Below the pieces are notes generated by a model, which saw only the letters and a list, made by a program, of their open reading frames with translations, did not search any database and was not told the DNA's origin. From an uncultured Sporosarcina sp. (GTDB lineage: Bacteria; Bacillota; Bacilli; Bacillales_A; Planococcaceae), in NCBI GenBank assembly GCA_947644645.1, contig CANSAF010000011.1, positions 1 through 62,838 of the forward strand: DNA of 62,838 nt, read 5' to 3'. A program made the position numbers and the translations under genes. This document shows, one piece after another, positions 1,086 to 50,721 of this stretch (position 1 is the stretch's first letter; each line of letters opens with the position of its first letter).

Positions 1086-1158
1086 GTTATCCGCGGCTCA
1101 GACCGATTTATCCGCGCTCCAGAGTAGTTTATCCGCGTTCGGGAGGAGTTTATCCGCG
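1086..1158. repeat. 21-bp-period intergenic array, core TTTATCCGCG
   Basis: Four copies of (T/G)TTATCCGCG start at 1086, 1107, 1128 and 1149, exactly 21 bp apart. The 11-bp spacers differ from each other. The array lies 28 bp beyond the pstB terminator and before the pstS PhoP boxes. It is not coding, since the 7-codon reading is broken by TAG. Function is unknown; two other arrays in the window share the period but not the sequence. Confidence 0.85.
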
Positions 1159-1274
1159 CAACAACAAATTCTTAACAAAATCATACAATATCCACTTAAT
1201 AATTAACCTCCTCAAAACTATCTACACCACAAAACGTTCAGAATCCCCCTCTCCCTCTGGATTTTCTGAGCAGT

Positions 1275-1328
1275 TTTACAGTTTCTTTACATTTCCCACA
1301 TACTTCCTTAACAATCTATTCTTATACT
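1275..1328 (+). promoter_or_regulatory. Tandem PhoP boxes and -10 element of pstS
   Basis: TTTACA (1275), TTTACA (1286), CACATA (1297) and TTAACA (1308) form an 11-bp-periodic PhoP array. A -10 TATACT begins at 1323, again 15 bp after the start of the last box, as upstream of pstB. Confidence 0.8.
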
Positions 1329-1401
1329 AATAATTAGAAAGTGTTTGAACGACAAACGCCTTTCTACTACTACATGAAATGTTCGAGGAGGACAATGGAA
1401 A

Positions 1402-2403
1402 ATGAAACTGAAAAATCTTTTACTATTAAGCATGATTGCGCTAATCGTAGCAATTGCCGCTGCTTGTGGAACGAAAGAAGATGAACCGAGCGGAAATGAA
1501 AATGACAACGCAAACCAAAGTGAAGACGCAGGTGCTGACGAAGATGCAGCAACATTAGAAGGCAGCGTTGTGATTGATGGATCTGGAACGGTTTATCCTT
1601 TAATGGCGAAAATTGCTGAAGAATATATGATTAACGAACAAGAAAATGTTTCTGTAGAAGTAAGCCGTGCTGGGACAAGTGCTGGTTTCAAGAAGTTTTT
1701 AGTAGAAGGTGGAAATGATTTCAACGACGCATCTCGTCAAATGAAAGACGAAGAAGCTGCGGAAGCAGAAAGTTTAGGCATGGAAGTTAAAGAATTAAAA
1801 GTAGCATTAGATGGTTTAACATTTGTTATTAACCCAGAAAATGATTGGGCAAAAGAATTAACACCTGAACAATTAATTAGCATTTTTAAAGCAGATGGCA
1901 ATGTACAAAAATGGTCTGATATTAATCCAGAATGGCCAGCCGAAGACATCAACCCAATGGGACCAAACGAAAACCACGGAACATATGAATTTTTCTATGA
2001 AAATGTATTAGATAAACAAGACTTAGCAGATCACGTCAAATTAGAGCAAGATTATTCAACATTAGTTAACTTAGTATCAGAAGATAAAAACGGAATCGCA
2101 TTCTTTGGTTTTGGTTACTATGTAAACAACACAGATAAATTACAAGCAGTTCATGTTGATTTTGGTAACGGTGCAGTTGAACCTTCATTAGAAACAATTG
2201 CTGAAGACGGCGATTACGCAGATTTCACTCGTCCAGTATTCACGTACTTAAATGTGGATAATGCAAAAGAAAAAGCACAAGTATTAGATTACGCACTTTA
2301 TGTTGTAAACAATGTAAATACATTCGCTGGTGAAACGGGCTTTGCGCCAATTCCAGAAGAAGAAGTTGAAGCAAATATCGAATTCTTAAATGGATTAAAA
2401 TAA
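1402..2403 (+). CDS. pstS: Phosphate-binding lipoprotein PstS
   Basis: Extracellular phosphate receptor delivering phosphate to PstCA. The 333-residue protein has a lipoprotein signal peptide ending in lipobox IAAAC, with acylated Cys22, then an acidic Asn/Asp/Glu-rich linker. The PstS/SBP domain shows phosphate-loop motifs DGSGTVYPL and SRAGTSAGF. GAGGAGG lies 11 bp before the ATG; another ATG at 1395 is out of frame. It is followed by hairpins before pstC, which would let PstS be made in excess over the membrane subunits, as is common for binding proteins. Confidence 0.96.
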   Translation: MKLKNLLLLSMIALIVAIAAACGTKEDEPSGNENDNANQSEDAGADEDAATLEGSVVIDGSGTVYPLMAKIAEEYMINEQENVSVEVSRAGTSAGFKKFLVEGGNDFNDASRQMKDEEAAEAESLGMEVKELKVALDGLTFVINPENDWAKELTPEQLISIFKADGNVQKWSDINPEWPAEDINPMGPNENHGTYEFFYENVLDKQDLADHVKLEQDYSTLVNLVSEDKNGIAFFGFGYYVNNTDKLQAVHVDFGNGAVEPSLETIAEDGDYADFTRPVFTYLNVDNAKEKAQVLDYALYVVNNVNTFAGETGFAPIPEEEVEANIEFLNGLK

Positions 2404-2407
2404 TAAC

Positions 2408-2450
2408 GAGGCTGTCCAATAGCTTTGCTATTGAACGCCTCCTTGCTTTT
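2408..2450 (+). terminator. Hairpin after pstS (bulged-T GAGGC family)
   Basis: Arm GAGGCTGTCCAATAGC pairs with GCTATTGAACGCCTC around a TTT loop, followed by a short T-rich stretch (TTGCTTTTC). Because pstC follows in the same direction, it probably attenuates rather than fully ends transcription. It belongs to the dispersed hairpin family described in the findings. Confidence 0.7.
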
Positions 2451-2540
2451 CTATGCGTTTACTTTGTTCATTCCACTACTTTTGGGCTTTCCTTACTAAA
2501 GCCCAAAAGCAAAAGAATACATCATTTTCAACCACACAAG

Positions 2541-2597
2541 AACGGGAGGCTGTCCCCAAAAGTTGCGTTCTTTCAACTTTCGAGACAACCTCCCGTT
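2541..2597 (+). other. Second intercistronic hairpin between pstS and pstC
   Basis: Arms AACGGGAGGCTGTC and GACAACCTCCCGTT, extended inward by AAAAGTTG and CAACTTT, form a long imperfect hairpin ending about 15 nt before the pstC ribosome-binding site. No T-run follows directly, so an RNA-stability or processing role, or a degenerate terminator, is more likely than clean termination. Confidence 0.6.
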
Positions 2598-2629
2598 CAT
2601 AATTTTATAAAAAAGGAGTGCCAAACAAA

Positions 2630-3586
2630 ATGGATATCCAAAATCATTTAGCTAAAGATGGACAAACAAGTATCCGAGAAATGATCCAAGAGAAAAGAAA
2701 GAAACGTCGTGTAAAAGAAACTTTTGAAAAACTCATTCCTAAATTTCTTCTAGCACTTGCGATGGTTTCGATTTTAACAACAATTGGCATTGTGTTTACA
2801 TTGCTCTCCGAAACGATTGAGTTTTTTAAAAGAGTTCCTATGACAGACTTTTTCACTGGAACTGTTTTAAAACCACTCAGTCAAACACCTGAGTTTGGTG
2901 TACTTCCTTTAATTATGGGAACAGTAACATCCTCTATTATTGCTTTATTTGTTGCAGCACCAATTGGACTGATGTCTGCTATTTACTTAAGTCAGTATGC
3001 TTCAGAGAGAGTTCGAAAGATTTTTAAGCCATTACTTGAATTATTAGCAGGAATTCCAACGATTGTATACGGATTTTTCGCTTTTACATTTGTCACACCT
3101 TTGCTACGCGAGTTCATTCCAAGCCTGGAAGCGACAAATATTTTAAGTCCTGGAATTGTGATGGGGGTCATGATTATTCCGATGATCGCTTCTTTATCTG
3201 AAGATGCGATGAGTTCAGTCCCAAATGCAATGCGTGAAGGCGCCCTTGGATTAGGTGCGACAAAACTTGAAGTGACACGAAAAGTTGTCATTCCAGCAGC
3301 TTTGTCGGGAATTATCGCTTCATTCGTACTTGGAATTTCACGCGCAATCGGCGAAACAATGATTGTGACAATCGCAAGTGGAAGTACGAAAAACTTTACA
3401 TTAGATGTCACACAGTCAATGCAAACGATGACCGCTTATATTGTTGAAGTTACGGGCGGGGATGCTTCAACTGGCTCCACTGTTTATTACAGCTTATATG
3501 CCGTTGCAATGACTTTATTTATTTTCACATTACTCATGAATATTCTTGCGAGAAAAATTTCTCAGAAGTTTAGGGAGGAATATTAA
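2630..3586 (+). CDS. pstC: Phosphate ABC transporter permease PstC
   Basis: One of two membrane subunits forming the phosphate channel. The 318-residue form has a basic cytoplasmic N-terminus, six predicted hydrophobic segments, and the permease EAA-type loop with GALGLGATKLEVTRKVVIPAA that docks on PstB. An upstream in-frame GTG at 2618 overlaps the AAGGAG ribosome-binding site (2613-2618), so the ATG at 2630 is the better start. It ends 1 nt before pstA starts, indicating cotranscription and probable translational coupling. Confidence 0.94.
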   Translation: MDIQNHLAKDGQTSIREMIQEKRKKRRVKETFEKLIPKFLLALAMVSILTTIGIVFTLLSETIEFFKRVPMTDFFTGTVLKPLSQTPEFGVLPLIMGTVTSSIIALFVAAPIGLMSAIYLSQYASERVRKIFKPLLELLAGIPTIVYGFFAFTFVTPLLREFIPSLEATNILSPGIVMGVMIIPMIASLSEDAMSSVPNAMREGALGLGATKLEVTRKVVIPAALSGIIASFVLGISRAIGETMIVTIASGSTKNFTLDVTQSMQTMTAYIVEVTGGDASTGSTVYYSLYAVAMTLFIFTLLMNILARKISQKFREEY

Positions 3587-3587
3587 G

Positions 3588-4472
3588 ATGGATCAAGCTC
3601 AAGAACAAAAAATAACGCGGAGAATTAACTTTCGAATCGTTAAAAATAAAATGGCGAGTGGTGTTTTTCTAGCAGCAACTTTATTTGGATTAGTTGTACT
3701 AGCCATGCTCATTTACCGCGTTGTAGCAGATGGTATCGGTTGGCTCAATATGGATTTCATTACAGGTAAGCTTTCTACACAACCTGAACGTGCGGGTATT
3801 ATGGGTGCAATTCTAGGAACATTTTGGCTCATGCTCGTCGTCACGCCTGTAACAATGTTTTTAGGCATTGGTACAGCGATCTATTTAGAACTTTACGCAA
3901 AAAAAGGACGCTTGCAAGCTTTTATTCAAACGAATATTGCTAACCTAGCGGGGGTTCCTTCGATTGTTTACGGCTTACTAGGATTGACTGTTTTTGCTCG
4001 TGCAATGAATCTCGGGAACGTTGCCTTAGCTGGTGGATTAACAATGTCTTTACTTATTCTTCCTATCGTAATCGTCGCAAGTCAAGAAGCTTTACGTGCA
4101 GTTCCAGGATTTTTAGGCGAAGCTTCTTATGGAATTGGTGCGACAAAATGGCAAACAATCCAAAACGTCATTTTACCTGTTGCTTTACCGAGTATTTTAA
4201 CAGGCGCAATTCTTTCGTTATCACGTGCGATTGGTGAAACTGCCCCGTTAGTTGTCATTGGAATTCCGGCACTTTTAATTCCTTTTCCGGGAAGTATTTT
4301 CGATAAATTTACGGTGCTACCAATGCAAATTTATTACTGGACAATTGACTCATCTTTAACGGCAGAATACGCAAACTTAGCGGCTGCTACGATTATTGTC
4401 TTGTTGCTTTGCTTACTTCTATTAAACTCAGCGGCAATTATTATTCGTAATAAGTTTCAGAAGCAGTTCTAA
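3588..4472 (+). CDS. pstA: Phosphate ABC transporter permease PstA
   Basis: Second membrane subunit of the phosphate importer; 294 residues, six hydrophobic segments, and the loop ASYGIGATKWQTIQNVILP facing PstB. GGGAGGA at 3573 lies at good distance from the ATG at 3588; a longer reading frame from 3546 would overlap pstC by 41 nt and is less likely. pstB does not follow, so the ATPase must come from the separate upstream transcript. Confidence 0.95.
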   Translation: MDQAQEQKITRRINFRIVKNKMASGVFLAATLFGLVVLAMLIYRVVADGIGWLNMDFITGKLSTQPERAGIMGAILGTFWLMLVVTPVTMFLGIGTAIYLELYAKKGRLQAFIQTNIANLAGVPSIVYGLLGLTVFARAMNLGNVALAGGLTMSLLILPIVIVASQEALRAVPGFLGEASYGIGATKWQTIQNVILPVALPSILTGAILSLSRAIGETAPLVVIGIPALLIPFPGSIFDKFTVLPMQIYYWTIDSSLTAEYANLAAATIIVLLLCLLLLNSAAIIIRNKFQKQF

Positions 4473-4621
4473 GCTGCCCTGCGCTTTGCTGGGGCGTCAA
4501 TGGTTGTGTGGTTTAGTGTAGGGATGCGGAGGCTTGCTGAAGTTGTCTGTTTCATTCAAGGGTACCGGGCAAAAAAAACCAAAAGGGAGCACGACAAGCA
4601 AACTAAACATACACACAAACA

Positions 4622-4664
4622 GGAGGCGTCCAATAGCAATAGCTATTGGACAGCCTCCCTTTTA
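4622..4664 (-). terminator. Convergent terminator, pstA and ATP-sulfurylase-like gene
   Basis: Nearly perfect stem (4622-4658) with loop AATA. On the plus strand it is followed by CCTTTTATT, so it can stop pstA. On the minus strand it reads GGAGGCTGTCC...GGACGCCTCC with one bulged T, the standard orientation of the family, and follows the stop of the minus-strand gene at 4665. Confidence 0.8.
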
Positions 4665-6386
4665 TTATTCATCACTACCGCGGTAACGTTTATATGGCAA
4701 TGTATTCCATGTTCGATAGCTTAAATTCTCTTGATCTAACACTTTTGGGATATCTTCTAATACTTTTTTAGCGACTTCCAGTTCACGGATTGATTCGGCT
4801 TTATCTTGGTATAAAAACTCGTCTGAAGCTTTTTCCGGTGCTTGTGCAACTTTTTCTTCCAAGTCCTGAATGACCATTTGCTGATGACGATGAAGTGATT
4901 CTCTCGCCTCCGTAATCCATAATGGCTGTAAACTACGATTTACATCGCCGACTTTACTAAACTCATCAAAGACTTCTTGATAAATTCGGCTCGCATTCGA
5001 TCGCACATCTAAATTCGCAGCTTCTAAATCCAAATTGGTCATTTCTTCAATCGTTAAAGATTTGACACGCTTATGCCCACCGAGACGTGTATGTTCTAAA
5101 TAGAATGGGAACATACTCTTAATCGTTTTTCCAACTGCTGAAATCGCTTCCCCGTCTGCGTCAACACCTTTCGGCTGAATGCCTTGCATCGCTACTCTCG
5201 CAGACTCTGGACGTACAATTTCTTTTGGCGGCATAATGCCATGACGAAGCATTTCCCGAATTCCCGTTCCTGAAATATTAATTTGATATTGTTGATCATG
5301 CGGGCAAGTTTGAGCTGTTGCTGGGCTTGCACATCTTGTACAATAAAATACTTCATGGAAAAGTCGCACATCGATGCCAAGCTCTTTCGGATCAAACTCA
5401 TCGAAAATGCTATGGCTCGCATACTTATCATAATAATCGCCAATTCCCGCATGATCTCGCCCAATTAGCGCATGCGTACAGCCATAATTTTTCATAATTA
5501 ACGCATGCAAAACGGTTTCTCTCGGTCCTGCAAAAATATAGGTTACGCGTAATGCTGACAGAATTGAGCGGTCTTTAGGATAATAAGTATCCAATACAGT
5601 TCGGTAAGCTAGCATACGGAATTCATGACGCGTATACTCTCTTTTTGCCATCTCAACTAATGGCTGGAGAAGTAAACCGTCGATTTCTTCCAACGCATTT
5701 TTATGAATATATTCATGTCCACGATGAAGCGGATTCGCCCCTGTAATAAACCCTGCGACTGAACGAAACTTTTTCTTTTCATAGAACTCATGCCATGTAT
5801 CTTTTGGTTCCAATCGTAATTTTTCAAACGGTCCCCAATCGACGCGGTTTAGTAATTGAATTGGACCCGCCAATGCTGTATCGCCCATTCTTCTATAAAT
5901 CGAATCGACGCCCGGATGATTTCGGTCCACTGTCCCAAACAAATTTGAGGCTCTATATTCTTTATCATAATCAAAAATATCATCCAAATGCATCGTTGCA
6001 ATGATTTGGTTCTTTTCATCTACCAAGGCAATATCATCACCAATAGACAATGCTTTTAAAACTTCTTCATTGCGCTTACCAATCGGCGCAAAACTTAATG
6101 GCACAGGCCAAATTAACCCGTTATCAAGTCTTCCAGTCGTCAAAACTGACTTATAATCTACTTCATTCATAAACCCTTCATTAGGTGATAAAACACCTGT
6201 TGCAATCATTTCAACAGTAATAATTGCTTCCATGTCGATCATAATTTTCGGCAGATGTTCTGCTTTCGCCAGTTCTTCTTCACGTTCTTTCCCTTTTAAC
6301 ACCTTATTGACTAACTTTCCTCCATGCGGTTGTTGCGGATAATTTTCGAAATTAATCTTTTCTTCAACAGTTGTTTGTTGCGTCAT
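4665..6386 (-). CDS. Divergent ATP-sulfurylase-like protein with C-terminal extension
   Basis: Belongs to the ATP sulfurylase (sulfate adenylyltransferase) family, which makes adenosine 5'-phosphosulfate from ATP and sulfate. The N-terminal PUA-like part (HGGKLVNKV at 21-29) and catalytic part (HRGH at 221-224, GRDHAG at 309-314, zinc-type Cys349, Cys352, Cys361, His363) are clear. The canonical sulfate-binding QTRN before PxHRGH is replaced by ITGAN (214-218), losing the Gln and Arg. Ordinary Sat ends near residue 390-400; this protein runs to 573. The charged, probably helical extension has no APS-kinase P-loop. No other sulfur-assimilation genes are adjacent. A strong AAGGGGGA precedes the ATG. 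Fold assignment is firm, substrate uncertain. Confidence 0.85.
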   Translation of the reverse strand: MTQQTTVEEKINFENYPQQPHGGKLVNKVLKGKEREEELAKAEHLPKIMIDMEAIITVEMIATGVLSPNEGFMNEVDYKSVLTTGRLDNGLIWPVPLSFAPIGKRNEEVLKALSIGDDIALVDEKNQIIATMHLDDIFDYDKEYRASNLFGTVDRNHPGVDSIYRRMGDTALAGPIQLLNRVDWGPFEKLRLEPKDTWHEFYEKKKFRSVAGFITGANPLHRGHEYIHKNALEEIDGLLLQPLVEMAKREYTRHEFRMLAYRTVLDTYYPKDRSILSALRVTYIFAGPRETVLHALIMKNYGCTHALIGRDHAGIGDYYDKYASHSIFDEFDPKELGIDVRLFHEVFYCTRCASPATAQTCPHDQQYQINISGTGIREMLRHGIMPPKEIVRPESARVAMQGIQPKGVDADGEAISAVGKTIKSMFPFYLEHTRLGGHKRVKSLTIEEMTNLDLEAANLDVRSNASRIYQEVFDEFSKVGDVNRSLQPLWITEARESLHRHQQMVIQDLEEKVAQAPEKASDEFLYQDKAESIRELEVAKKVLEDIPKVLDQENLSYRTWNTLPYKRYRGSDE

Positions 6387-6595
6387 CGTTTATCCCCCTT
6401 GTCAATATTAACTTTTTTTAGAACGATAAAAAAATTAATGCGAGCTGCCTAACGAAGTTTTAAAACGCTTGCACTGAGGTCAATCTTCCAATAACTTATC
6501 ACATTAACTTGAATACATCAAATATTCTATTAACTTTATCTGTATAACTTTTTTTTCGACATTTTGCGCAAGTTGCAAATCAATTACATACAAAA

Positions 6596-6632
6596 AGCAG
6601 CCTCCCAAAACTTACTTTCAGCTCGGGCAAGC
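6596..6632 (-). terminator. Terminator overlapping the 3' end of yqhG
   Basis: On the minus strand arm AGCAGCTTGCCC pairs with GGGAGGCTGCT, followed by TTTTTG. The first arm is made of the last codons of the upstream gene (6618), so the stem doubles as coding sequence. Confidence 0.7.
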
Positions 6633-7406
6633 TGCTAAATAAAAAAGACCTCCATTAATGATATCAATTTGTATATTCGCCTCATATTGCTCGGCTAATG
6701 CTTGTTGTTCGATTTGATAACGTTCTGGTTTATCTGTCGTATCTTCGTAAAAATAATCTAGAATCATTTTTTCTTTTTCCCATCTTTGCTTCGCTTCTTC
6801 TGCCCATGTATGATCGTCTTTTCGAATAACATTTTCTAATATTGCATCCAATCGATCAACCGCATTTTCAGGTTTAATCGTATACGGTAAACAAAATGTA
6901 TGCTTAGGAATTTCGGTTTGTAAGGAACGTGTCAATAAACTTTCTTGAAAATCTTTTAACACTTCGCCCGTCATTAAATTCATCCCGAGCGAATAAATAA
7001 ACTCTTTCGTCTGATGACTATAATAAGAAACTTTATAATTGATAATCACCCATGGCGTTAAAATCGTTTCGACACCTGATTTCCCTACTTCGTACATTCG
7101 AACGACAGCACCCATTTCATTCATCAGTGAAAATATTTGCGAAAGTCTCGGAGAACCTGCATGAATGACTTCTCCTGTAATTTTCTCGGTTAATTCATTT
7201 TTATTTGTAATAAATGTTAATTGCGCTGGAATAGGCTCATCACCAGTCGCTTCAATATATTGCCAATAATAAGGCCGATTCATCATTTTTTTATCCATTT
7301 CGACCGTTAATTGAACGATTAAATAATGGGCATGATCACTTAAAATTGGACAGTCATTTTCCTTAAAAAAACTTTGTAAATAATGGTGTATTTTTTGAGG
7401 ATACAT
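6618..7406 (-). CDS. yqhG: YqhG family protein
   Basis: 262-residue protein recognised as the Bacillus YqhG family, of unknown function and found next to the YqhH helicase. It is probably cytoplasmic, with no signal peptide or membrane segment. N-terminal MYPQKIHHYLQSFF and conserved central aromatic and charged residues fit the family. The ATG is preceded by AAAGGAAG, and the gene lies 12 nt after yqhH, so the two form an operon. In B. subtilis the pair sits beside gcvT; no gcvT is seen here. Confidence 0.85.
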   Translation of the reverse strand: MYPQKIHHYLQSFFKENDCPILSDHAHYLIVQLTVEMDKKMMNRPYYWQYIEATGDEPIPAQLTFITNKNELTEKITGEVIHAGSPRLSQIFSLMNEMGAVVRMYEVGKSGVETILTPWVIINYKVSYYSHQTKEFIYSLGMNLMTGEVLKDFQESLLTRSLQTEIPKHTFCLPYTIKPENAVDRLDAILENVIRKDDHTWAEEAKQRWEKEKMILDYFYEDTTDKPERYQIEQQALAEQYEANIQIDIINGGLFYLAACPS

Positions 7407-7418
7407 CGAAAACTTCCT

Positions 7419-8981
7419 TTACCCATTCATTTTCCTTACGTCTTGTCTTTTATTTACATAAGACAGTATGTCATCTAACTCACCGACTACTTTTTCAAAA
7501 ACGCCAATCTTTTTATATAAGAGATTTAAAATATGGTCTTCAATTGTATTTTGAACGGCTAAATTATAAATATAGACATCTTCATCTTGTCCAATTCGAT
7601 GGACACGACCAATTCTTTGCTCTAATTTCATCGGGTTCCACGGTAGGTCATAATTGATGACATGGCTACAAAACTGAAGGTTAATCCCTTCACTACCAGA
7701 CTCTGTTGCAATGAGTACTTGTGCTTTTTGTTCAAATAATTGTTTCATCCAATCTCTTTTACTCTTGCTAAAACGACCGTTAAAAGGCACACTTGTAATC
7801 CCTTTCGAATACAAATAACTTTGCAAGTAGATTTGTGTCGCTTCATATTCTGTAAAAATAATGACTTTATCATTTGCTTTTTTTATAATGTCATAAGCTT
7901 TTTCTGCTTTTGAATGATGTTGCAAGCTCATTAATTGCGTAATGACTCGATCAATTTCAGCAATTTCTTCAGCATTTGTACATCTTTCTTTCATTTTCGT
8001 CAGTGTTAAACAAGTCGCTTCCTTACTGCTACACATTTCTCTTTGAAGCGTAATCATTGAAAAGCTATGCGAGAAAATAGGTGATAGCTCTTTTAAATTG
8101 GAAATGCGCTCATAAGCAGCTTGCTCTTCTTTGGTAAATTGAATTGGATATACCTGCACTTGACGGCTTGTCCACTCCATTTCAGTATCTTGTCGACGAT
8201 TTCTTACCATCACTTGATTGACCAATTCATGTAAAAATTCTTCCGCTTCATCATGTTGTTTATTTCCTTTAAATGCGGCTTGAAATGATTCATAATTCCC
8301 TAGATGACCCGGTTTTAACAAGGAAATTAAATGAAACAACTCGAATACATTATTTTGAATCGGCGTGGCCGTTAATAATAAACAAAACTTCTTTTTTAAG
8401 TTTTGAACGAATTGATAGTTTTTCGTTTGATGATTTTTCAATTTATGTGCTTCATCAATAATAATTAAGTCAAAATCCTCTGCATAAATTTGGTCGCGAT
8501 AAGCTTCTCTTTTTGCCATATCAATGCTCATGACGACAATTTGGCAAGCATTTAAAGCATAGTTTTTTCGATAAGCAATTGCTGGGATATGGAATTTTTG
8601 ATTTAATTCATCTACCCATTGATTGACCAAAGATGCCGGTGCTAAAATAAGTGCTTTTTTGACAAGTCCTCTCACTAAATACTCTTTTAAAATTAAACCT
8701 GCTTCTATCGTTTTCCCAAGCCCCACTTCATCTGCCAATATGGCTTTTCCATTCATCTTTTCAATGACTGTTTCCGCCGCTTCTAATTGATGGTCAAAAG
8801 GTTTTAAATTTGGTAGATGCTTCAACGCTTGTAAACCATGAAAATCAGAGATTAAATTTTCTTTTTCTATGTCGTAACTCATCGAATAAAAAAGCCATGA
8901 ATCCCATTTTTCTTGATCATCTAAACGCTTTAAAAACTTTTCTTTCCAATCTGATGTTTTTTCGATACGCAGTGTAATCAC
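7419..8981 (-). CDS. yqhH: SNF2-family helicase YqhH
   Basis: Superfamily 2 Snf2/RapA-like ATPase, a DNA- or RNA-polymerase-associated translocase. Motif I DEVGLGKT is at residues 84-91, DEAH at 176-179 and TATP at 204-207. The C-terminal helicase lobe has EGINLQFCSHVINYDLPWNP and QRIGRVHRIGQ. At 520 residues it is slightly shorter than B. subtilis YqhH. The start is ambiguous: GTG at 8981 lies inside a near-perfect ribosome-binding sequence (AAGGTGATT), while an in-frame CTG at 8972 is better spaced from it. The partner is yqhG. The true substrate of this family is unknown. Confidence 0.9.
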   Translation of the reverse strand: MITLRIEKTSDWKEKFLKRLDDQEKWDSWLFYSMSYDIEKENLISDFHGLQALKHLPNLKPFDHQLEAAETVIEKMNGKAILADEVGLGKTIEAGLILKEYLVRGLVKKALILAPASLVNQWVDELNQKFHIPAIAYRKNYALNACQIVVMSIDMAKREAYRDQIYAEDFDLIIIDEAHKLKNHQTKNYQFVQNLKKKFCLLLTATPIQNNVFELFHLISLLKPGHLGNYESFQAAFKGNKQHDEAEEFLHELVNQVMVRNRRQDTEMEWTSRQVQVYPIQFTKEEQAAYERISNLKELSPIFSHSFSMITLQREMCSSKEATCLTLTKMKERCTNAEEIAEIDRVITQLMSLQHHSKAEKAYDIIKKANDKVIIFTEYEATQIYLQSYLYSKGITSVPFNGRFSKSKRDWMKQLFEQKAQVLIATESGSEGINLQFCSHVINYDLPWNPMKLEQRIGRVHRIGQDEDVYIYNLAVQNTIEDHILNLLYKKIGVFEKVVGELDDILSYVNKRQDVRKMNG

Positions 8982-9034
8982 CTTATTATGTCTGACTTTT
9001 TATCATTAGTATGGACAATCAATCTTAAAAACAT

Positions 9035-9077
9035 ACAAGAGGCTGTCCGATAGCTTCACTGTCGGACAGCCTCTTGT
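9035..9077 (-). terminator. Terminator after the ugp operon
   Basis: A perfect 16-bp stem, ACAAGAGGCTGTCCGA (9035-9050) with its complement (9062-9077), is followed on the minus strand by ATGTTTTT. It lies just past the stop of the phosphodiesterase gene and ends the ugp transcript. Confidence 0.85.
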
Positions 9078-9081
9078 AATT

Positions 9082-9798
9082 TCATTTGCTATAAGGCAAC
9101 ATTTTCTCTGGATAATCTGTGAAAATGGCTTGAATACCGATTGCCTTTAATGCTTCAAGTTCATTCTCTTTATTCACAGTAAATATGCGTACTGGAACAT
9201 TTTCTTCAATGAGTTCCTTCACAAAATCTCCCTTTGCAGATGGCTTATATAAATGCAATCCATCTGTTGGAACAACGCGCAAATAATTTAACGGCTCCAC
9301 AAGTGTTTCCATAAATAATGCAGCTGTGACAAGCTCTGGCTGAAGTTGTTTGATTTTACGAATTGCTCCATGGTTGAAAGAAGAAATAATGACACGCTCT
9401 TCAAATCCATACTGACCGATTAACGCGACAACTTTTTCTTCCAATGCTTCATATGCATAAACATCAGATTTCAATTCAATATTAATTAGATGATTTGTGT
9501 TTACATACACTTGAAAAACTTCTTCCAAAGTTGGGATTGTTTCTCCTGCAAAATCTTGTGCAAACCAACTGCCATAATCATAACGCTTTAATTCTTCTAA
9601 TGTCATCTCTTTAACGGGCCCACTACCATTAGAAGTTCGGTCAATGGTTTCATCATGAATAACGACAATTTCTCCATCTTTTGATAAATGAACGTCTAAC
9701 TCTACGCCTTGAATCGGGAGTCTTGCAGCTTCCTTAAAAGCCGCAAGCGTATTTTCTGGATGTGTTCCTGAAGAACCTCGGTGAGCAAATATCTCCAC
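9082..9798 (-). CDS. Glycerophosphodiester phosphodiesterase (GDPD/UgpQ type)
   Basis: Hydrolyses glycerophosphodiesters to glycerol-3-phosphate and an alcohol. The 238-residue TIM-barrel GDPD domain has HRGSSGTHPENT at the N-terminus, ELDVHLSKDGE with the metal acidic residues, the HDETIDRTSNG motif and IELKSD. It has no signal peptide, so it is cytoplasmic and acts on imported substrate. The longer frame to 9879 overlaps the binding-protein gene; AAGGAGGAA followed 7 nt later by GTG (9798) gives a standard start immediately before EIFAHRG. It is the last gene of the ugp operon. Confidence 0.92.
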   Translation of the reverse strand: MEIFAHRGSSGTHPENTLAAFKEAARLPIQGVELDVHLSKDGEIVVIHDETIDRTSNGSGPVKEMTLEELKRYDYGSWFAQDFAGETIPTLEEVFQVYVNTNHLINIELKSDVYAYEALEEKVVALIGQYGFEERVIISSFNHGAIRKIKQLQPELVTAALFMETLVEPLNYLRVVPTDGLHLYKPSAKGDFVKELIEENVPVRIFTVNKENELEALKAIGIQAIFTDYPEKMLPYSK

Positions 9799-9820
9799 TT
9801 GTACTTCCTCCTTCATATGA

Positions 9821-11164: not shown

Positions 11165-11183
11165 ATTTAACACATCCCTTTTT

Positions 11184-14031: not shown

Positions 14032-14117
14032 ATGTAAACTCCTCTCATTACTATCAAATCAATGATCGTAACTAAATTCATTTTTATCTTACATGGAATT
14101 TTATTTTTTTCTTTACT

Positions 14118-14298: not shown

Positions 14299-14304
14299 TC
14301 TTAG

Positions 14305-21447: not shown

Positions 21448-21580
21448 GATTAACTAAAGTGACGTGAGAATTACCTAAAGTTCGGCGTTAATTCACTAAT
21501 GTTTTGCGGCTATTGCCCAAAGTTCGGCAATAATTCACTAATGTTTCGCGATGATTACCTAAAGTGGCGGCGATTCACTC
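21448..21580. repeat. 21-bp-period intergenic array, core ATTNNCTAAAGT
   Basis: The motif CTAAAGT, CTAATGT or CCAAAGT starts at 21454, 21475, 21496, 21517, 21538 and 21559, always 21 bp apart, each preceded by ATT(A/C/G). Most units end in a CG-rich TTCGGC- or TTGCGG-like segment. A degenerate seventh unit follows at about 21573. The array lies directly past the terminator of the minus-strand SMR gene and upstream of the SCP2 gene. It is non-coding and of unknown function. Confidence 0.88.
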
Positions 21581-38293: not shown

Positions 38294-38295
38294 AA

Positions 38296-39759: not shown

Positions 39760-39778
39760 CATTTTTCCTCCTTGTACA

Positions 39779-40072: not shown

Positions 40073-40138
40073 GATAATTCCTCCTTGTCATTTAATCGCC
40101 TCTTTAATCATAGCATTGTCGAAAAGTGATGGAAAGAT

Positions 40139-43328
<3,190 letters not shown>

Positions 43329-43364
43329 GTTTTCCTATTCATTCTCAACAAGCGCTTGTCCCGA

Positions 43365-45596
43365 TTAACCTTTTTCAATCGGCGCAAATTTCGCAAGTAG
43401 ACGTTTAATACCTACTGGATCTGGAAAGGCAATATCTAATTCCATATCATCCCCGGTGCCGTTTGTACTGACAACCATGCCTGTTCCCCACTTTTTATGG
43501 ACCGCTTTATCACCTACACGCCAGCCCAGCTTTTCACCGCCACTCACCGTATAACCTGGTCTTTTCACAGCTGGACGTCTCGCTGCAACTTGTGGGCGCG
43601 CACGCATGCCACCATTAAATGAAGATCCACCTTCTGATAAGTCTTCAACAATGTCCGCAGAAATTTCTCCAATAAATCTAGAAGGCTGGTTATAGCTTGA
43701 GCGTCCGAATAACATTCTATAACGTGCAGATGTTAAATAAAGCTTTTGTTCGGCACGAGTGATACCAACATACGCAAGTCGCCTTTCTTCCTCCATCTCA
43801 TCGTCATCATGCATCGAACGCGCATGTGGGAAGACATTTTCTTCCATACCGATAATGAAAACAACTGGATATTCAAGCCCTTTTGCACCATGCATCGTCA
43901 TTAATACGACTTTTTCAGCTTCTTTATTTTCTTCTTTATCTAATGAATCAATATCCGCAATCAATGCCAAATCTGTTAAAAAGGCAACGAGTGATTGATC
44001 TTCATCTTCAGAACGTTTTTCAAATGCTTGCGTAACTGATAAAAATTCTTCAATATTTTCCAAACGACTTTCTGACTCAATTGTTTTTTCTTTCTTCAAC
44101 ATTGCACGGTAACCCGTTTTATCAAGCACTTCTTCTACCAGTTCAGAGACTGATAAATACTCTTGCATTTTCGTAAAGTTTTTAATCATTTCATAGAATT
44201 TAGCTGTTTCATTTGCCGCACGCGCTGATAATCCCATGAAATCTAATTCTTGTAAGGAATCATAAATCGAGCGATCATGCATAATCGCAAACGTCGCCAT
44301 TTTTTCAAACGAAGTTGCACCGATGCCACGTTTCGGTTCGTTAATAATTCGACTTAAAGCTAAATCATCTTCATTGTTCGCAATTAAACGTAAGTAAGCC
44401 AGTAAGTCTTTAATTTCTTTTCGGTCATAGAACTTTGTGCCGCCAACGATTGTATAATCAATATTCGACTTCACAAGAAACTCTTCTATCACACGTGACT
44501 GTGCATTCGTACGATAAAGAATTGCAAACTGGTCTAGCGTCAGTCTTTCTTCTTGCTGCAATTCTAAAATTTTACTCACAACAAACTGCGCTTCTGATTT
44601 TTCATCGCTCGCTTTATAAACATAAATCGGATCACCTTCGTCATTATCCGTTCGAAGTTTTTTATCGTAGCGAGAGCGATTATTTAAAATGACATCATTG
44701 GCTGCTTGTAAAACATGTTTTGTAGAACGATAATTTTGCTCAAGTAAAATGACTTCAGCATTTTGATAATCTTTTTCGAAAGACAAAATATTACCAATAT
44801 CAGCACCGCGCCATCTATAAATCGACTGGTCTGAATCCCCTACTACACAAAGATTTTTATGTTTCGCAGCTAATAAATTTACTAATTGATACTGTGCATT
44901 GTTCGTATCTTGGTACTCATCCACGTGAATATAATGAAATTTGTTTTGATAAAATTCTAGCACTTCAGGTACTTTTTCGAATAACACGAGCGTTTTCATA
45001 ATTAAATCATCAAAATCAAGTGACTGATTTTGACGTAGCTTTTTCGCATAAGCTTCGTATACATCTGCAATTTTTCGCTCATATGGATTTTGATTGTTCA
45101 TCAATTCACGGTATTTCTTTTCATCAATACATTCGTTTTTCGCATCACTAATTGCGCCGAGCATTACCCGCGGCTCATATTGTTTTGGATCTAAATTCAA
45201 TTCTTTTAATACTTGTTTAATCGCCGTTAATTGGTCTGCTGTGTCAAGAATTGAAAAGCTCTTTGCATAGCCAATCTGGTCAATATTTCGGCGTAAAATG
45301 CGTACGCACATGGAGTGGAAAGTCGATACCCACATCCGTTCCCCTGTTCCCGCGCCGAGTAAGCCGTCAATTCTTTCACGCATTTCTCTTGCTGCTTTAT
45401 TGGTAAACGTAATCGCTAAAATATTCGATGGATACATTTTCTTTTCAACGATTAAATAAGCAATTCGATGCGTTAATACCCGCGTTTTCCCCGAACCAGC
45501 ACCCGCCATAATGAGCAAAGGTCCTTCTGTTGTTTGCACAGCACGTGCTTGTTCAGGATTCATCCCTTTTAATAAGTTTTCCGCTATTGATTTCAT
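43365..45596 (-). CDS. pcrA: ATP-dependent DNA helicase PcrA
   Basis: Essential UvrD/Rep-type 3'-5' helicase used in repair and rolling-circle replication. 743 residues. Motif [10 protein letters not shown] near residues 32-40, motif Ia [11 protein letters not shown], motif [10 protein letters not shown], motif [19 protein letters not shown], motif IV EQNYRS, motif [15 protein letters not shown] and motif [16 protein letters not shown]. The C-terminal tail ends in the Tudor-like RNA-polymerase-interacting segment ([16 protein letters not shown]). AAAGGGCGG precedes the ATG; pcrB lies 44 nt upstream. Confidence 0.97.
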
Positions 45597-45639
45597 TCAT
45601 AACCGCCCTTTCGGAACATTTGTTCTTTCATTATACCTC

Positions 45640-46341
45640 TTAGTGCTCTGATTGGACAACTGATTGCACAGCTTTTACTGTCGATAAAGCTGCTTTTAAA
45701 TCTTCATAAATAATATTGCCAACAATGACAGTATCTGCGATTTCAGCCATTTCTACAGCATCTTTCGCATTTCGAATACCGCCACCATAAAATAATTTCG
45801 TTTTGTCAAGAATTTCTGCAGCTGCACGAACCATATTGACATCTCCGTATGTGCCGCTGTACTCCATATAAAAGACGGGTAATTTAAAAAGATGTTCCGC
45901 CATTTGTGCGTAAGCAATTAAATCATCTTCATCTTGAATCGGTTTTGCTTTCGTTGCATGCGCAACTTTACAATCTGGATTTAATACACAATATCCTTCT
46001 ACTGCAATTTCTTCCCAATTCATCATATGACCATACTCACGAAGTGCCCCATGATGTAAGCCATTAATCCACTTTGTGTCCGACGAATTTAACACTGTTG
46101 GAATAAAGTAATAATCAAATCCTGGTGTTACCGATTCTACCGTCGAAACTTCCAATGCAACTGGCACGGAAAAGCGTCGAATCCGCACAAGTAAATCGAG
46201 TACGCCATCAAGCGTTACATCATCTGTTCCACCTACAATAATTCCATCTGTTCCCGATTCAGCAATTTTCTCTAAATCTTCATCTGAGATTGTTTTTGCT
46301 GGGTCTAATTTAAAGGCATGACGCCATTTTGTATAATCCAT
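45640..46341 (-). CDS. pcrB: Heptaprenylglyceryl phosphate synthase PcrB
   Basis: TIM-barrel prenyltransferase joining heptaprenyl diphosphate to glycerol-1-phosphate, first step of an archaeal-like ether lipid. 233 residues with GTDGIIVGGTDDVT, YFIPTVLNSSDTKWI and the phosphate-binding KLFYGGGIRNAKDA and ADTVIVGNIIYED. AGGTGG lies 6 nt before ATG 46341; the TTG at 46347 is less likely. Placed before pcrA as in B. subtilis. Confidence 0.95.
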   Translation of the reverse strand: MDYTKWRHAFKLDPAKTISDEDLEKIAESGTDGIIVGGTDDVTLDGVLDLLVRIRRFSVPVALEVSTVESVTPGFDYYFIPTVLNSSDTKWINGLHHGALREYGHMMNWEEIAVEGYCVLNPDCKVAHATKAKPIQDEDDLIAYAQMAEHLFKLPVFYMEYSGTYGDVNMVRAAAEILDKTKLFYGGGIRNAKDAVEMAEIADTVIVGNIIYEDLKAALSTVKAVQSVVQSEH

Positions 46342-46390
46342 TGTCAACCACCTAATCTTTTAAGTTCGTTAAACCATTATACCAAAAGAG

Positions 46391-46440
46391 GAGGCTGTTC
46401 AGAAAGTCTTAGTGCGTGACTTTCTGAACGCCTCGCGTTT
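46391..46440 (+). other. Plus-oriented terminator-like hairpin A (yerC-pcrB gap)
   Basis: GAGGCTGTTCAGAAAGTC pairs with GACTTTCTGAACGCCTC, with one bulged T, and is followed by GCGTTTTTG. Its family orientation and T-run point right, though both neighbouring genes run left. Confidence 0.7.
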
Positions 46441-46525
46441 TTGAGTGTTTGGATGTGATGTGTTTGTTCTCTTTTTGAGGGTTTCATGTGGAGTTTTTCG
46501 TGGCCTTAGTGCTGTGTTTTTTTAG

Positions 46526-46577
46526 GAGGGAGGGTTCAGAAAGCCATAGTCTATGACTTTCTGAACCCTTCCTTGTT
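46526..46577 (+). other. Plus-oriented terminator-like hairpin B (yerC-pcrB gap)
   Basis: GGAGGGTTCAGAAAG... pairs with GACTTTCTGAACCCTTCC, followed by TTGTTTTG. Near-copy of hairpin A 85 bp away. On the minus strand A residues, not T, follow the stem. Confidence 0.65.
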
Positions 46578-46612
46578 TTGATTATTCATCTTTCAGTTCA
46601 TGCAATACTATT

Positions 46613-46915
46613 TTATAACTCTTCTTTCACATCTAATCTGCTTAAAATCTTTTGATAGCCACCTGAACCGTAGTCTACGCAGCGACGTACACGAGAAATT
46701 GTCGCGGTGCTTGCACCAGTTTCTAGTTGAATCGTATCATATGTTTTTCGTTCATTCAGCATTTGCGCAACTTCTAAACGTTGGGCAAGTGATTGGATTT
46801 CACTGATTGTACATAAATCATCAAAAAGTTCATAGCATTCTTCAATATTTTCTAGCTTTAAAATCGCTTCAAATAATTGGTCCGTTTGCGGTCCACGAAT
46901 TTTATCTAACTGCAT
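46613..46915 (-). CDS. yerC: TrpR-like regulator YerC/YecD
   Basis: 100-residue helix-turn-helix protein of the Trp repressor fold (YerC/YecD family). The HTH lies in RLEVAQMLNERKTYDTIQ and LETGASTATISRVRRCV. The regulon is not known from sequence. ATG preceded by AGTGGGGA. Position between yerB and pcrB is conserved with B. subtilis. Confidence 0.92.
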   Translation of the reverse strand: MQLDKIRGPQTDQLFEAILKLENIEECYELFDDLCTISEIQSLAQRLEVAQMLNERKTYDTIQLETGASTATISRVRRCVDYGSGGYQKILSRLDVKEEL

Positions 46916-46942
46916 ATTTAAATCCCCACTCTCTCGCTCGAT

Positions 46943-47998
46943 TTAAGGTGTGTAGGAAGCATTCATTTCAATGCCAGGGTCTGTACGAATAATGTGAATC
47001 CATGTTTTACCAGGAACCAATTTAGCCGGTACACCATTGTCAACAGGCATGAATATGCCATTTGCGTTACGCCAAGCCATTTCTTTCACAGCGCCTGCTT
47101 GAAACAATAATGCTTTTCCACCAGATTCAAGGTCAATCGATTGTCTTCCCTCTGCATCGATCGTATGATGTTCTGCTTCAATTACAAGAATATTCGATAG
47201 CTTAACAGACTGTCCATTTGCCTTATCAATTGTCTCGACATCGTTGACAAACTGTTGATAAACACCCGCGTCAGCATCATACGTGTACACACTTGTAAAT
47301 TGCGGATGGGAACCATTTTGTACCGTAATTGAAGATGCCTCTTCCTCTATTTTAACATCTTCCACTGAGTCATGGAAAGAAAGTGCCGGCATTTTCTGAA
47401 TGACTGTAGACGCATTCACTTGTTCTTCAGCAAGCTTTATATTTTCACCAGAAATATACGAATTATGTGGCGCACGACGTTCCGGTGAGCGTTTAAATAA
47501 AGTACCATCATGCTGCATTCCGTTCACATGATCTACGACGCCTGCTTGTAGTAATGCAAGCGCATCTGGACTATAACCATGCGCAATATAAAAAGCATCT
47601 AATCCTTTGGCCGTGTGAATAAACATATCTCTAGAACTTCGAATCGGGCCAATTTCATCAGGCAATGAGCTTTGGAACAACGCTAAATATCTCGTCATAT
47701 TTCCTTCAGCAATCAATTCATAAATAATATCCGCTTCACTTAATCCAGATTGTGGACGCGCTTTTGGATCATTATTAATCGTCGCAAGAACTGGACGCAT
47801 CGTACTTTCTTCTTCTAACATCATCCCTGTAAATGGTGCCATAAACTTTTCTTCTTCCACTTCTTGGGGCTGTTCGTTTTCTTTCGGTTTATTTACAGGA
47901 ATCTTCGGCTCTTCCTCTTGTTCATTCGACTTGGAACAAGCTGTCAATAAAACGAACATCATCGTCAATGCCACAATTGACAGAATTACTTTTTTCAT
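46943..47998 (-). CDS. yerB: DUF3048 lipoprotein YerB
   Basis: Secreted lipoprotein of about 351 residues. The signal peptide ends in LLTAC, then a Glu/Pro/Lys-rich linker, then the DUF3048 body (DNDPKARPQSGLSEADIIYE-like, IGPIRSSRDMFI and HGYSPDALAL). Function unknown. The start is chosen among adjacent ATGs; AGGTGG lies 5 nt before that at 47998. The gene begins 9 nt after the yerA stop, with which it is cotranscribed. Confidence 0.88.
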   Translation of the reverse strand: MKKVILSIVALTMMFVLLTACSKSNEQEEEPKIPVNKPKENEQPQEVEEEKFMAPFTGMMLEEESTMRPVLATINNDPKARPQSGLSEADIIYELIAEGNMTRYLALFQSSLPDEIGPIRSSRDMFIHTAKGLDAFYIAHGYSPDALALLQAGVVDHVNGMQHDGTLFKRSPERRAPHNSYISGENIKLAEEQVNASTVIQKMPALSFHDSVEDVKIEEEASSITVQNGSHPQFTSVYTYDADAGVYQQFVNDVETIDKANGQSVKLSNILVIEAEHHTIDAEGRQSIDLESGGKALLFQAGAVKEMAWRNANGIFMPVDNGVPAKLVPGKTWIHIIRTDPGIEMNASYTP

Positions 47999-48007
47999 CA
48001 TTTCCAC

Positions 48008-49726
48008 CTATCTCTCCGTTACAGGAACGAGTACTTTATTTTTCATTACATCATAAATTCCTTGCGGTGTCACCCTCACATATGGTAAATGTGTCGATTG
48101 TAAGAATAAAAATGTATAAATTGCATCTGCATGGTGATATCCACGTTCTTTTAAAGCCTTTTTTAAAGTGAGTTCTTGCTGCATTAAAGGTTCCACAGCC
48201 TCTTCCGATAATCCGCCCGCAATCGGTAAAGGAAGCGTGACAAGTGGCGCTCCGTCTTCCATTAACACCATGCCGCCACCGATTCTTTTCATTTCATTAA
48301 AAGCTTGATGCATCGCTTTTTTATCTTTTCCAATTAAAATAATATCGCCAGTATTTGAGTAAGACGATGCAAATCCTTCTACTTTTGAAGCAAAGCCTTT
48401 TAATAATGTATTGACGCGCCAATTTCCCGCACGATCAATAAGCATGATAAAGCTTTCATTATGATCCGTAGAAAGCGCATTACCTGACGTATCAACGGTA
48501 ATCTCATAAGGCTTTGTAATGACATCATTAACCATTTCGATGCCAAATGCATGATCAAATGTAAAATCTTCTGCATATAACTCAAAAGTAGGCGTAAACT
48601 CTCCAAGCGCCGACCAATCTAGCGGTTCAAAGACATCTCGGGCTTGTCCATCTTTTTTCAGCCAAACTCCTTTCGCTAACACATCTGTCGGAACAGGGTT
48701 TTGTTCATCTTCTAGAAAATTCAATGTCGCATAACGCCCTGTTGCAATGACTCCATGCTTGTCGGTCATATCATAATAGCGCGCAACATTATACGAAGCC
48801 ATTAAGTACGCATCAATCGCGGGCACACCCGTATCAAGTGCTACTTGAATACATTTGTCCATCACACCGTCAATATGAAAAGAAGGTGTCGAACCGTCCG
48901 TTGTCATCATGATATGATCAAACACATCTAATTTATGATCAACAATCTCTTTTAATAAATGAGGCAAATCTGGACGAATTGAAGAATGGCGTAATGTAAC
49001 GGCATAACCATGCAGTAGACGATTCTCTACTTCTTCCAAAGTCATTGCCTCGTGATCTCCGTCGATGCCAAGTAATTTCATACGTGCCAATGTTTTTTCT
49101 GATGCTCCTGGTAAATGTCCTTCAATTTTCTTCCGTGATTCTTTTGCTGCTTGAACAGTTGCAAACATATTCGGATCTCCGCCAAGTAGTCGCGGCCATC
49201 CCGTTAATTCCCCAGCAAGTAGCACATCTTCACGAAGTAACCAGGGCATGATTTCCTCTGGATTAAATTGTTCTGTTTCGTCTTGTAATGCTGTTTGTGA
49301 ATCCATTCTCGCCCACCAATAATAATGGAATGGCTGTTTTTTTAATTGATCAAGCAAAGTAAAACTTGTTTCATTATCCCGATTCATAAAAAACGTCAGA
49401 TTATCTGAGATAAAAGTTGTTGTACCAAGAGCTCCTGCAAATTCTGCAAACGTTTTCGGATTATAGAGCTGAAACGGATGAACATGCGGCTCAATATATC
49501 CTGGCACAATTTTCTTCCCTGTTGCGTCAATGATTTCTGCGCCCTCCGTCGTCTCCGGCATCGCTTCCCCTGCATAGACAATCCGGTCATTATGTATCCA
49601 TATATTCCCTGTCAGCCATTTTTTATAAATCGCATGTAAATAAGTTGCATTTATAATGATCAAATTGGGTGCTTCCGTTCCGTTAATCATTTGAAGTTGT
49701 TCATGAATTTCTTTTTGCGTCCACAT
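48008..49726 (-). CDS. yerA: Adenine deaminase-like protein YerA
   Basis: 572-residue amidohydrolase of the adenine deaminase family; probable purine salvage or related deamination. The metal-binding HxH is in GYIEPHVHPFQLYNP, another site region is GHLPGAS, and DHIMMTTDG contains the catalytic acid area. The protein is distinct from classical AdeC (Glu-Pro before HVH, Pro after). Substrate is therefore not certain. Lies beside the purine operon as in B. subtilis; no purine box seen upstream. Confidence 0.88.
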   Translation of the reverse strand: MWTQKEIHEQLQMINGTEAPNLIIINATYLHAIYKKWLTGNIWIHNDRIVYAGEAMPETTEGAEIIDATGKKIVPGYIEPHVHPFQLYNPKTFAEFAGALGTTTFISDNLTFFMNRDNETSFTLLDQLKKQPFHYYWWARMDSQTALQDETEQFNPEEIMPWLLREDVLLAGELTGWPRLLGGDPNMFATVQAAKESRKKIEGHLPGASEKTLARMKLLGIDGDHEAMTLEEVENRLLHGYAVTLRHSSIRPDLPHLLKEIVDHKLDVFDHIMMTTDGSTPSFHIDGVMDKCIQVALDTGVPAIDAYLMASYNVARYYDMTDKHGVIATGRYATLNFLEDEQNPVPTDVLAKGVWLKKDGQARDVFEPLDWSALGEFTPTFELYAEDFTFDHAFGIEMVNDVITKPYEITVDTSGNALSTDHNESFIMLIDRAGNWRVNTLLKGFASKVEGFASSYSNTGDIILIGKDKKAMHQAFNEMKRIGGGMVLMEDGAPLVTLPLPIAGGLSEEAVEPLMQQELTLKKALKERGYHHADAIYTFLFLQSTHLPYVRVTPQGIYDVMKNKVLVPVTER

Positions 49727-49880
49727 TCACATCACTCCTTTGAATTATCGCCTACTCATAACTTTATCCTAGCATAGTACAAAAGTTTTAAACAGATTTT
49801 TCGAATAATTATCAAAGGATTTAAATGAATTATCACGAATTAAGTAAATTAGAAAGTGATAAGAATAGGAGTTTGTGAAA

Positions 49881-50573
49881 ATGAATGAACAAATGAATTT
49901 CGATGCAAATATGGCTACCGAATATGACCGTGGCATTCGCCGCACGCTGCCAACTTATGATGCTTTATTTAGACTCACACAAGCATATTTCAGGAAAAAT
50001 ATCGGAGTAAATAGCGATGTGCTCATCGTTGGTGCTGGGGGTGGAACAGAACTGACAACATTTGGTCCGGAAAATACTGGGTGGGCTTTCACCGCTGTAG
50101 ATCCCGCTGCTTCAATGTTAAAGCTGGCAAAGCATAAAGCAACGCAACTCAATTTAATAGACCGCGTTCGGTTTATTGAAGGGACAATTGACCAAGTTCC
50201 AGAATCAAATTTATATGACGCCGCCACGTTTATGCTTGTGCTTCACTTTATAGAAGATGACGCTGTTAAATTACAGCAACTAAAAAGCATTCGAAAACGC
50301 TTAAAAAACGGCGCACCTTTCGTCTTATCCTCAATGTATGGTGACCCTGAAAGCGAGGAGTTTGAGACGTTATTTTCTTTATGGAAAGCTTATTGGCTTG
50401 ATACGACAAAGCTCTCTGAGGAAGAAATAGATGAAATGGAAAAGACCGTTAGAAAAGTATCTTTTATTCCAGAAGAAAAAATCATTGAGATGCTGGCAGA
50501 AGCGGGATTCGGTCATATTGCAAAGTTTTTTACGACGAATATGTTTGGTGGATGGATTTGTAGAGCGGGATAA
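49881..50573 (+). CDS. Class I SAM-dependent methyltransferase
   Basis: 230-residue methyltransferase with SAM motif I VLIVGAGGGTEL, motif II TAVDPAASML and AATFMLVLHFIEDD. The ATG at 49881 follows AGGAG at good distance; a GTG two codons upstream is too close. No partner gene; the substrate cannot be deduced. Gene converges on purD and is followed directly by the third repeat array without an obvious terminator of its own. Confidence 0.85.
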   Translation: MNEQMNFDANMATEYDRGIRRTLPTYDALFRLTQAYFRKNIGVNSDVLIVGAGGGTELTTFGPENTGWAFTAVDPAASMLKLAKHKATQLNLIDRVRFIEGTIDQVPESNLYDAATFMLVLHFIEDDAVKLQQLKSIRKRLKNGAPFVLSSMYGDPESEEFETLFSLWKAYWLDTTKLSEEEIDEMEKTVRKVSFIPEEKIIEMLAEAGFGHIAKFFTTNMFGGWICRAG

Positions 50574-50590
50574 CATGAAGTTTTGATTGT

Positions 50591-50721
50591 GAGTTTACAG
50601 CAATATGCCATGAATTTACACCGCTCAAGCGAGTTCACAGCGCGGAGCCGCAAATTTACAACAACTTGTGTTGAGTTTACAGCAATCGGCGACGAGTTTA
50701 CATCGCACAAGCGAGTTCACA
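50591..50721. repeat. 21-bp-period intergenic array, core GAGTTTACA
   Basis: GA(G/A)TT(T/C)ACA-like cores start at 50591, 50612, 50631, 50652, 50673, 50694 and 50713. Spacings are 21, 19, 21, 21, 21 and 19; both 19-bp units end in (A/C)AAGC. The array lies between the 3' ends of convergent genes, before the purD terminator. The 19-bp units break any reading frame, so it acts as DNA or RNA, not protein. Function unknown. Confidence 0.85.

Follow-up and report, generated by a model that had tools for sequence, protein, structure and literature searches.

Intergenic direct-repeat arrays with a 21-bp period form several families with different cores in a Sporosarcina genome

Intergenic arrays of short direct repeats that share a 21-bp period and differ in their cores were found in a 62,838-nucleotide stretch of DNA from an uncultured Sporosarcina sp. 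(here called the window). The phenomenon is larger than the three arrays of the window, as families of such arrays run through the host genome and are also present in two sampled congeners. We favor, with a probability of roughly one-half, the interpretation that these are chromosomal protein-binding arrays, on which putative family-specific proteins would bind cooperatively and take part in chromosome organization.

The preliminary description of the window had reported three arrays with unlike cores and a single 21-bp period, all lying outside genes and beside a terminator or convergent gene ends. The arrays and their cores stand (Table 1), and none overlaps an open reading frame (ORF) of at least 80 amino acids, but A3 is not purely 21-bp and instead mixes 21- and 19-bp steps in the order 21, 19, 21, 21, 21, 19. 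The account of the borders was accurate for A1, which has a terminator-like hairpin and co-directional genes on either side, and for A3, which lies between convergent genes and adjoins a hairpin. It failed for A2, an array of six to seven units of two types between two co-directional minus-strand genes, where a terminator scan of the window detected none. A TTTTGATTG-like box was seen directly ahead of several arrays of the A3 family, F3 (window positions 50566 to 50590; host contigs C41 and C24), and is a possible start boundary for them. Rfam covariance models applied to the window at gathering score matched no array; the sole match was a purine riboswitch (RF00167; 61688 to 61787, minus strand) on the same strand as purD (50778 to 52037), the gene bordering A3.

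Table 1. Arrays of the window and the features that border them
Feature	Position	Strand	Description
A1 (family F1)	1079–1158	+	Four TTATCCGCG cores at 1087, 1108, 1129 and 1150; exact 21-bp steps
AT-rich tail of A1	1159–1182	+	F1 tail consensus, in register with the unit that would follow
A2 (family F2)	21449–21578		ATTACCTAAAGTTC and ATTCACTAATGTTTC units alternating; 21-bp steps, 42-bp higher-order repeat
A3 (family F3)	50591–50724	+	Seven cores: GAGTTYACA / GAATTTACA / AAATTTACA
Terminator-like hairpin before A1	1002–1053		Perfect 18-bp inverted repeat, then T run; after ABC gene 176–994
Hairpin and T run just after A3	50734–50773		purD 3′ end

The best lag-21 score per 63 positions was 44 for A1, 39 for A2 and 34 for A3. 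When the whole window was resampled 60 times at order 1 and 60 times at order 3, the maxima at lag 21 were 35 and 36, respectively; for any lag from 12 to 60 they rose to 39 and 38. A1 is clearly beyond chance. A2 exceeds chance at lag 21 and equals the resample extreme when all lags are considered. The lag-21 score of A3 by itself does not exceed chance, and we consider this array real because it carries an 82-bp higher-order repeat (87%) and because its family recurs genome-wide. An unselected host sample of 463 kb, made up of the window and the first 20 kb of 20 contigs, contained 12 lag-21 segments scoring at least 36/63, compared with none at lags 19, 20 and 23, one at lag 22, and zero at lag 21 in a single first-order resample. 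Further peaks appeared at lags 42 (9 segments) and 63 (6 segments), and we conclude that lag 21, together with 42 and 63, dominates the de novo scan. Weak 21-bp periodicity was also seen in coding-looking host DNA with 7-codon repeats (C2:67976-71325, C5:70227-71013 and C51:10846-11205 of the host genome, G000), which is a source of false positives for lag-21 scans.

To survey the host genome (3.36 Mb in 160 contigs), the window arrays were used as BLAST queries, which at an E value of ≤10, and with the window copies included, matched 29 times (A1), 18 times (A2) and 38 times (A3). At E ≤0.01 there were 13 A1 loci and 15 A3 loci, and strong A2 matches lay on two other contigs only. All three window arrays are thus members of families dispersed through the host genome. 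An 881-kb host set, enriched for A1 and A3 sites, held 76 lag-21 segments of at least 34/63, many of which are arrays and others of which look coding, and yielded at least six core families: F1 (TTTATCCGCG), F2 (CCTAAAGTT), F3 (GAGTTTACA), F4 (TTTTCAGTGC), F5 (GCGGACATT) and F6 (GGACAACTC), the last seen at one place only. Twelve array loci were counted by hand in the unselected 463 kb, which corresponds to roughly 90 per host genome. Moreover, 76 of the 80 exact TTATCCGCG words in the F1-enriched 881 kb lie inside arrays, and the 4 single words fit the first-order expectation of 5.7 for the whole set.

Distances between cores (at most one mismatch, 10 to 66 bp apart, in the 881 kb) define the geometry. 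F1 pairs recurred only at 21 bp (62 pairs), 42 bp (46) and 63 bp (30), F4 pairs at 21, 42 and 63 bp, and F5 pairs at 21 and 42 bp. F2 and F3 use 19, 40 and 61 bp besides, and F3 a few others including two pairs at 20 bp; steps of 19 and 21 bp are therefore both in use in these families and steps of 20 bp hardly ever. Phase is not absolute because 19-bp steps occur, and these, like the 41-bp double steps common in one congener (G158), speak against strict helical phasing. The core is 9 to 10 bp long and the spacer 11 to 12 bp with base preferences; over its nine bases the F1 core holds 1.9 to 2.0 bits per column (78 units, at most one mismatch), and the spacer holds little. An AT-rich end box with the consensus CWAYRACATATTTTTAAYAAAAA and seven invariant columns is present in all 16 host F1 arrays with at least three cores, and five units is the commonest array size, both in the host (11 of 16) and in Planococcus. 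In these 16 arrays, F1 spacers at equal positions were alike at 5.17 of 12, versus 5.02 elsewhere (P = 0.083), with composition predicting 5.17, and block copying, by which spacers would be more alike at equal positions, was dropped as not significant. A common alignment of all cores seemed possible by eye and was abandoned when orientations disagreed.

Selection on the core was examined in 20 orthologous F1 array pairs from four Planococcus/Planomicrobium species, 14 of which had at least 400 aligned bases and were used. Differences were found at 14 of 640 core positions, 104 of 495 spacer positions and 1100 of 6875 flanking positions. As the cores had first been chosen by matching, the count was repeated with cores defined by their phase, so that mutated cores also counted and end cores formed a class of their own. 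In ten pairs, differences then numbered 8/310 in inner cores, 7/200 in end cores, 105/451 in spacers and 723/4380 in flanks, and for six Planococcus loci represented by one pair each, end cores differed at 3/120 and flanks at 381/2639. The sequence comparison indicates that the F1 core is under purifying selection in Planococcus, because inner cores at the six loci differed at 4/190 positions and spacers at 60/275 (P = 4e-11). Moreover, orthologous F1 arrays differ by the gain or loss of whole 21-bp units. Slippage, which had been put forward as a generator of the arrays, may account at most for this gain and loss and is insufficient alone because cores are ten times less diverged than spacers. 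In a separate case, one orthologous array of another family is common to three close Sporosarcina congeners with its cores mostly kept, judged by eye, and is absent from a more distant congener.

Protection of the core from change in F1, the family covered by this comparison, fits binding by a protein family and suggests that putative proteins bind the arrays. The mostly exact two-turn spacing, the asymmetric and conserved core, the free spacer, the defined ends and the selection on the core together match what is expected of a cooperative protein-binding array. On such a model, each family would be an element in which a 9- to 14-bp asymmetric core recurs about 4 to 8 times, mostly every 21 bp, or two helical turns, and neighboring copies of one putative DNA-binding protein would line up along the same face of the helix and bind cooperatively, making the array polar. 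Selection would maintain the core and leave the spacer free, and whole units would be gained and lost, probably by slippage or unequal recombination. A genome would carry several families and its relatives other cores at an unchanged period, with the core and its putative binding protein presumably changing together. The role would be one of chromosome organization coupled to replication rather than regulation of neighboring genes.

Consistent with a polar element, F1 and F3 arrays in four genomes have the core on the C-rich, lagging strand in 40 of 42 cases. Among host loci with enough cores, counted after merging, this orientation was found for 12/13 F1 and 12/14 F3 loci (24/27 together; P = 5e-5), and host loci picked by BLAST at E ≤0.01 gave 12/13 and 14/15 (26/28 together). 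The other three genomes gave 8/8 (G097), 5/5 (G105) and 2/2 (G112), loci that are partly orthologous. All seven convergent host F1/F3 loci have the core on the lagging strand, and of six loci whose tandem neighbors are transcribed against the leading strand, four have the array oriented by the skew; among all F1/F3 loci between tandem genes, the core shares the strand of the genes at 5 and lies on the opposite strand at 13. We conclude that core orientation in the host tracks replication more closely than transcription. The orientation is not universal, as two weaker F3 host loci (C39 and C64) go against it and two others (C86 and C126) agree, and hand assignment gave 4 for and 3 against in F2, 2 and 1 in F5, and 3 and 1 in F4. 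Nor was there a significant bias in G158, where 20 of 31 arrays had the replication orientation (P = 0.15). The G158 count draws on the 100 places listed out of 145, locates the origin and terminus by sampled skew and leaves out three clusters at 2.2 to 2.4 Mb.

Location relative to genes gave no comparable signal. Convergent gaps hold 7 of 29 placed loci against 37 of 267 gaps in the background (P = 0.17), so that convergent gene ends are not significantly enriched, and divergent gaps hold 2 of 29 against 46 of 267 (P = 0.19). The scanned neighbors, which comprise 20 of the 43 ORFs that flank arrays and ten genes of the window, are ordinary and unrelated (topoisomerase-like, tRNA synthetase, PEPCK, ferritin-like, transporters and others) with no evident theme. 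We prefer a chromosome-level role over local gene control because the neighbors are themeless and because strand in the host tracks replication better.

The exact F1 pair pattern is patchily distributed, being present in 5 of 151 genomes of the family, the host among them, and in none of 16 other congeners. Of 80 F1-pattern loci listed from a named collection, 42 belong to Bacillales or to one Bacillota bin (the Bacillales include Neobacillus, Bacillus renqingensis, B. canaveralius, Planococcus, Planomicrobium, Pseudalkalibacillus, Amphibacillus and others), and the rest are scattered over other phyla. Among the 35 loci that were inspected, 32 of them from Bacillota, the bases flanking the core vary from genus to genus. 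The F1 word also stands in 21-bp arrays in a Flammeovirgaceae MAG (L152) and in Nocardioides limicola (L103, followed by an inverted copy), occurrences that so large a collection may yield by chance. In Bacillus massilionigeriensis (NZ_LT630337), 14 of 18 F1 unit pairs fall within about 550 kb of record coordinate 0.

Congeners carry the period with other cores. One family in G158 comprises 145 unit pairs (at most one mismatch; 0 for the reversed-pattern control), and one in G110 comprises 456 (at most two mismatches; control, 1). In 400-kb samples, de novo scans found 9 lag-21 segments of at least 36/63 in G158 and 7 in G110. By eye, some of these are coding or simple sequence, and two of the G110 seven are masked N stretches that count at every lag; lags 15 and 24 reach 5 segments in the G110 sample, and at 39/63 there remain 1 segment in G158 and 3 in G110 (2 masked). 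A strong lag-21 peak is thus seen in the host and a weak one in the congener samples, and for that reason it is the family counts that carry the claim for the congeners. Together with the host lag-21 scan and the resample controls, they support the proposal that the arrays are a real class in which the period is shared and the cores are not. Among the plus-strand places listed for G110, dense clusters of the CGCTCWAT family occupy 2.23 to 2.25 and 2.37 to 2.41 Mb, with longer repeats above the 21-bp unit, and G158 has about 13 arrays of one family within 180 kb (2.83 to 3.01 Mb), all but two on the same strand, where sampled GC skew is near zero. In raw counts, from which we draw no claim of positional conservation, an array stands right behind purD in 2 of 19 congener loci (one weak, 35/63) and at ABC/PBP genes in 7 of 19, with unrelated cores and with four of the seven upstream of the ABC gene rather than in the gap used by the host. 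In another congener, G162, a 21-bp array of about 39 units of ACGAGCGGGTT type (L280:518-1334) lies directly upstream of a PBP gene related to that at 1402 to 2403 of the window.

Several known repeat systems resemble the arrays in part. Plasmid-origin iterons (of Rep_3 and similar initiators) comprise about five direct repeats near 21 bp with an AT-rich stretch beside them, and the arrays likewise are tandem direct repeats at two-turn spacing with a conserved core and, in F1, an adjoining AT-rich tail. Iterons mark plasmid origins, whereas the arrays occupy many chromosomal sites in several families; a Rep_3 iteron origin was rejected for the host, as PF01051 (Rep3_N), the one Rep family searched, is absent from it and in all from five of six array-bearing genomes. 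RacA-associated motifs, KOPS/SRS and Chi are dispersed chromosomal motifs, some oriented with replication and species specific, but they are single sites or palindromes with no fixed 21-bp period. CRISPR loci also alternate a constant word with a variable spacer, with repeats of some 20 to 50 bp and spacers of similar length; the core and spacer found here are far too short. TTATCCGCG agrees at 7 of 9 positions with TTATCCACA, which we take to be the DnaA box, and DnaA boxes were dropped as the other families and the congener cores are unlike it. A literature search, with subscription journals mostly beyond its reach, found no paper on intergenic arrays of 21-bp period.

REP/BIME elements are short, extragenic, dispersed, high-copy and family specific, as the arrays are, and bring up the alternative of a self-spreading, REP-like or nonautonomous repeat, in which the core would be recognized by the enzyme that copies the element, with no benefit to the bacterium, and insertion into single-stranded DNA at the fork would produce the lagging-strand bias. 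The large per-species families, the defined ends, the strand bias and the patchy occurrence of F1 fit such a repeat, and we consider this explanation unlikely but the likeliest of the alternatives. REP/BIME form hairpins, whereas F1 arrays are tandem every 21 bp, and folding of the 16 host F1 arrays revealed neither a palindromic hairpin-forming unit nor RNA structure on either strand (z around 0, from −1.8 to 1.8). Y1 transposase is the REP enzyme family; RAYT/Y1 (PF01797) had 0 matches in G000 and G112, whereas each of the four remaining genomes of the six searched had one to three, and REP/RAYT was rejected for the host, which lacks the enzyme. Moreover, orthologous arrays persist across several Planococcus species with their cores kept, unlike a decaying insertion, and a search of phages and plasmids with one Planococcus array as the query found no copy. 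Four stretches in viral contigs match the F1 pair pattern.

An RNA-level element, transcribed with the core as a single-stranded site for an RNA-binding protein, is improbable. A comparable proposal exists for the TAACTGA direct repeats of Beggiatoaceae, which resemble the 21-bp arrays as many intergenic sets of short direct repeats whose neighbors have no common function, and differ in having a 7-bp unit, a location mostly just upstream of start codons and one fixed word (PMC4679880). The excess of tandem F1/F3 cores on the strand opposite the gene, the agreement of all convergent loci with the skew and the lack of F1 structure argue against transcripts as the site of action.

An origin by chance, or by neutral duplication and slippage of tandem units in AT-rich DNA between genes, is very improbable. 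Whole-unit gains and losses would be expected of it, and A3 taken alone is no better than chance at lag 21, but the resample maxima stay below A1 and, at lag 21, below A2, A3 rests on its family, the reversed-pattern controls are nearly empty, the same period recurs in unrelated families and genomes, and the contrast between core and spacer refutes neutrality for F1. On the F1 core strand, two reading frames each have a stop in 1 of the 16 arrays, and stops alone do not decide the matter of coding because these frames are nearly stop-free. Least probable of all are coding heptads or their relics (21 bp being 7 codons), for example coiled coils: those two frames and some lag-21 signals that look coding by eye, such as chemoreceptor-like and Cys-rich ORFs, point that way, but the 19-bp steps of F2 and F3 break any reading frame, nine contiguous core bases are kept where all spacer codon positions vary, and no ORF of the length given above covers the window arrays.

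The interpretation as protein-binding arrays may be extended, tentatively and with less than even probability, to an undescribed system of the Bacillales, in which each genome would encode several paralogous DNA-binding proteins, each with its own core at a two-turn period in dozens to more than 100 intergenic arrays, some families oriented with replication. Protein and core would change together between species as the 21-bp geometry stays constant, comparable to fast-evolving satellite or centromere binding in eukaryotes. If the interpretation is correct, a layer of bacterial intergenic repeats that looks like junk would be selected for a geometry of 21 bp and a sequence chosen by the species, and the rapid turnover of cores would be a bacterial case of coevolution between repeats and binding proteins. 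Should the link to replication direction hold up, these arrays would also be a further class of polar motif on chromosomes.
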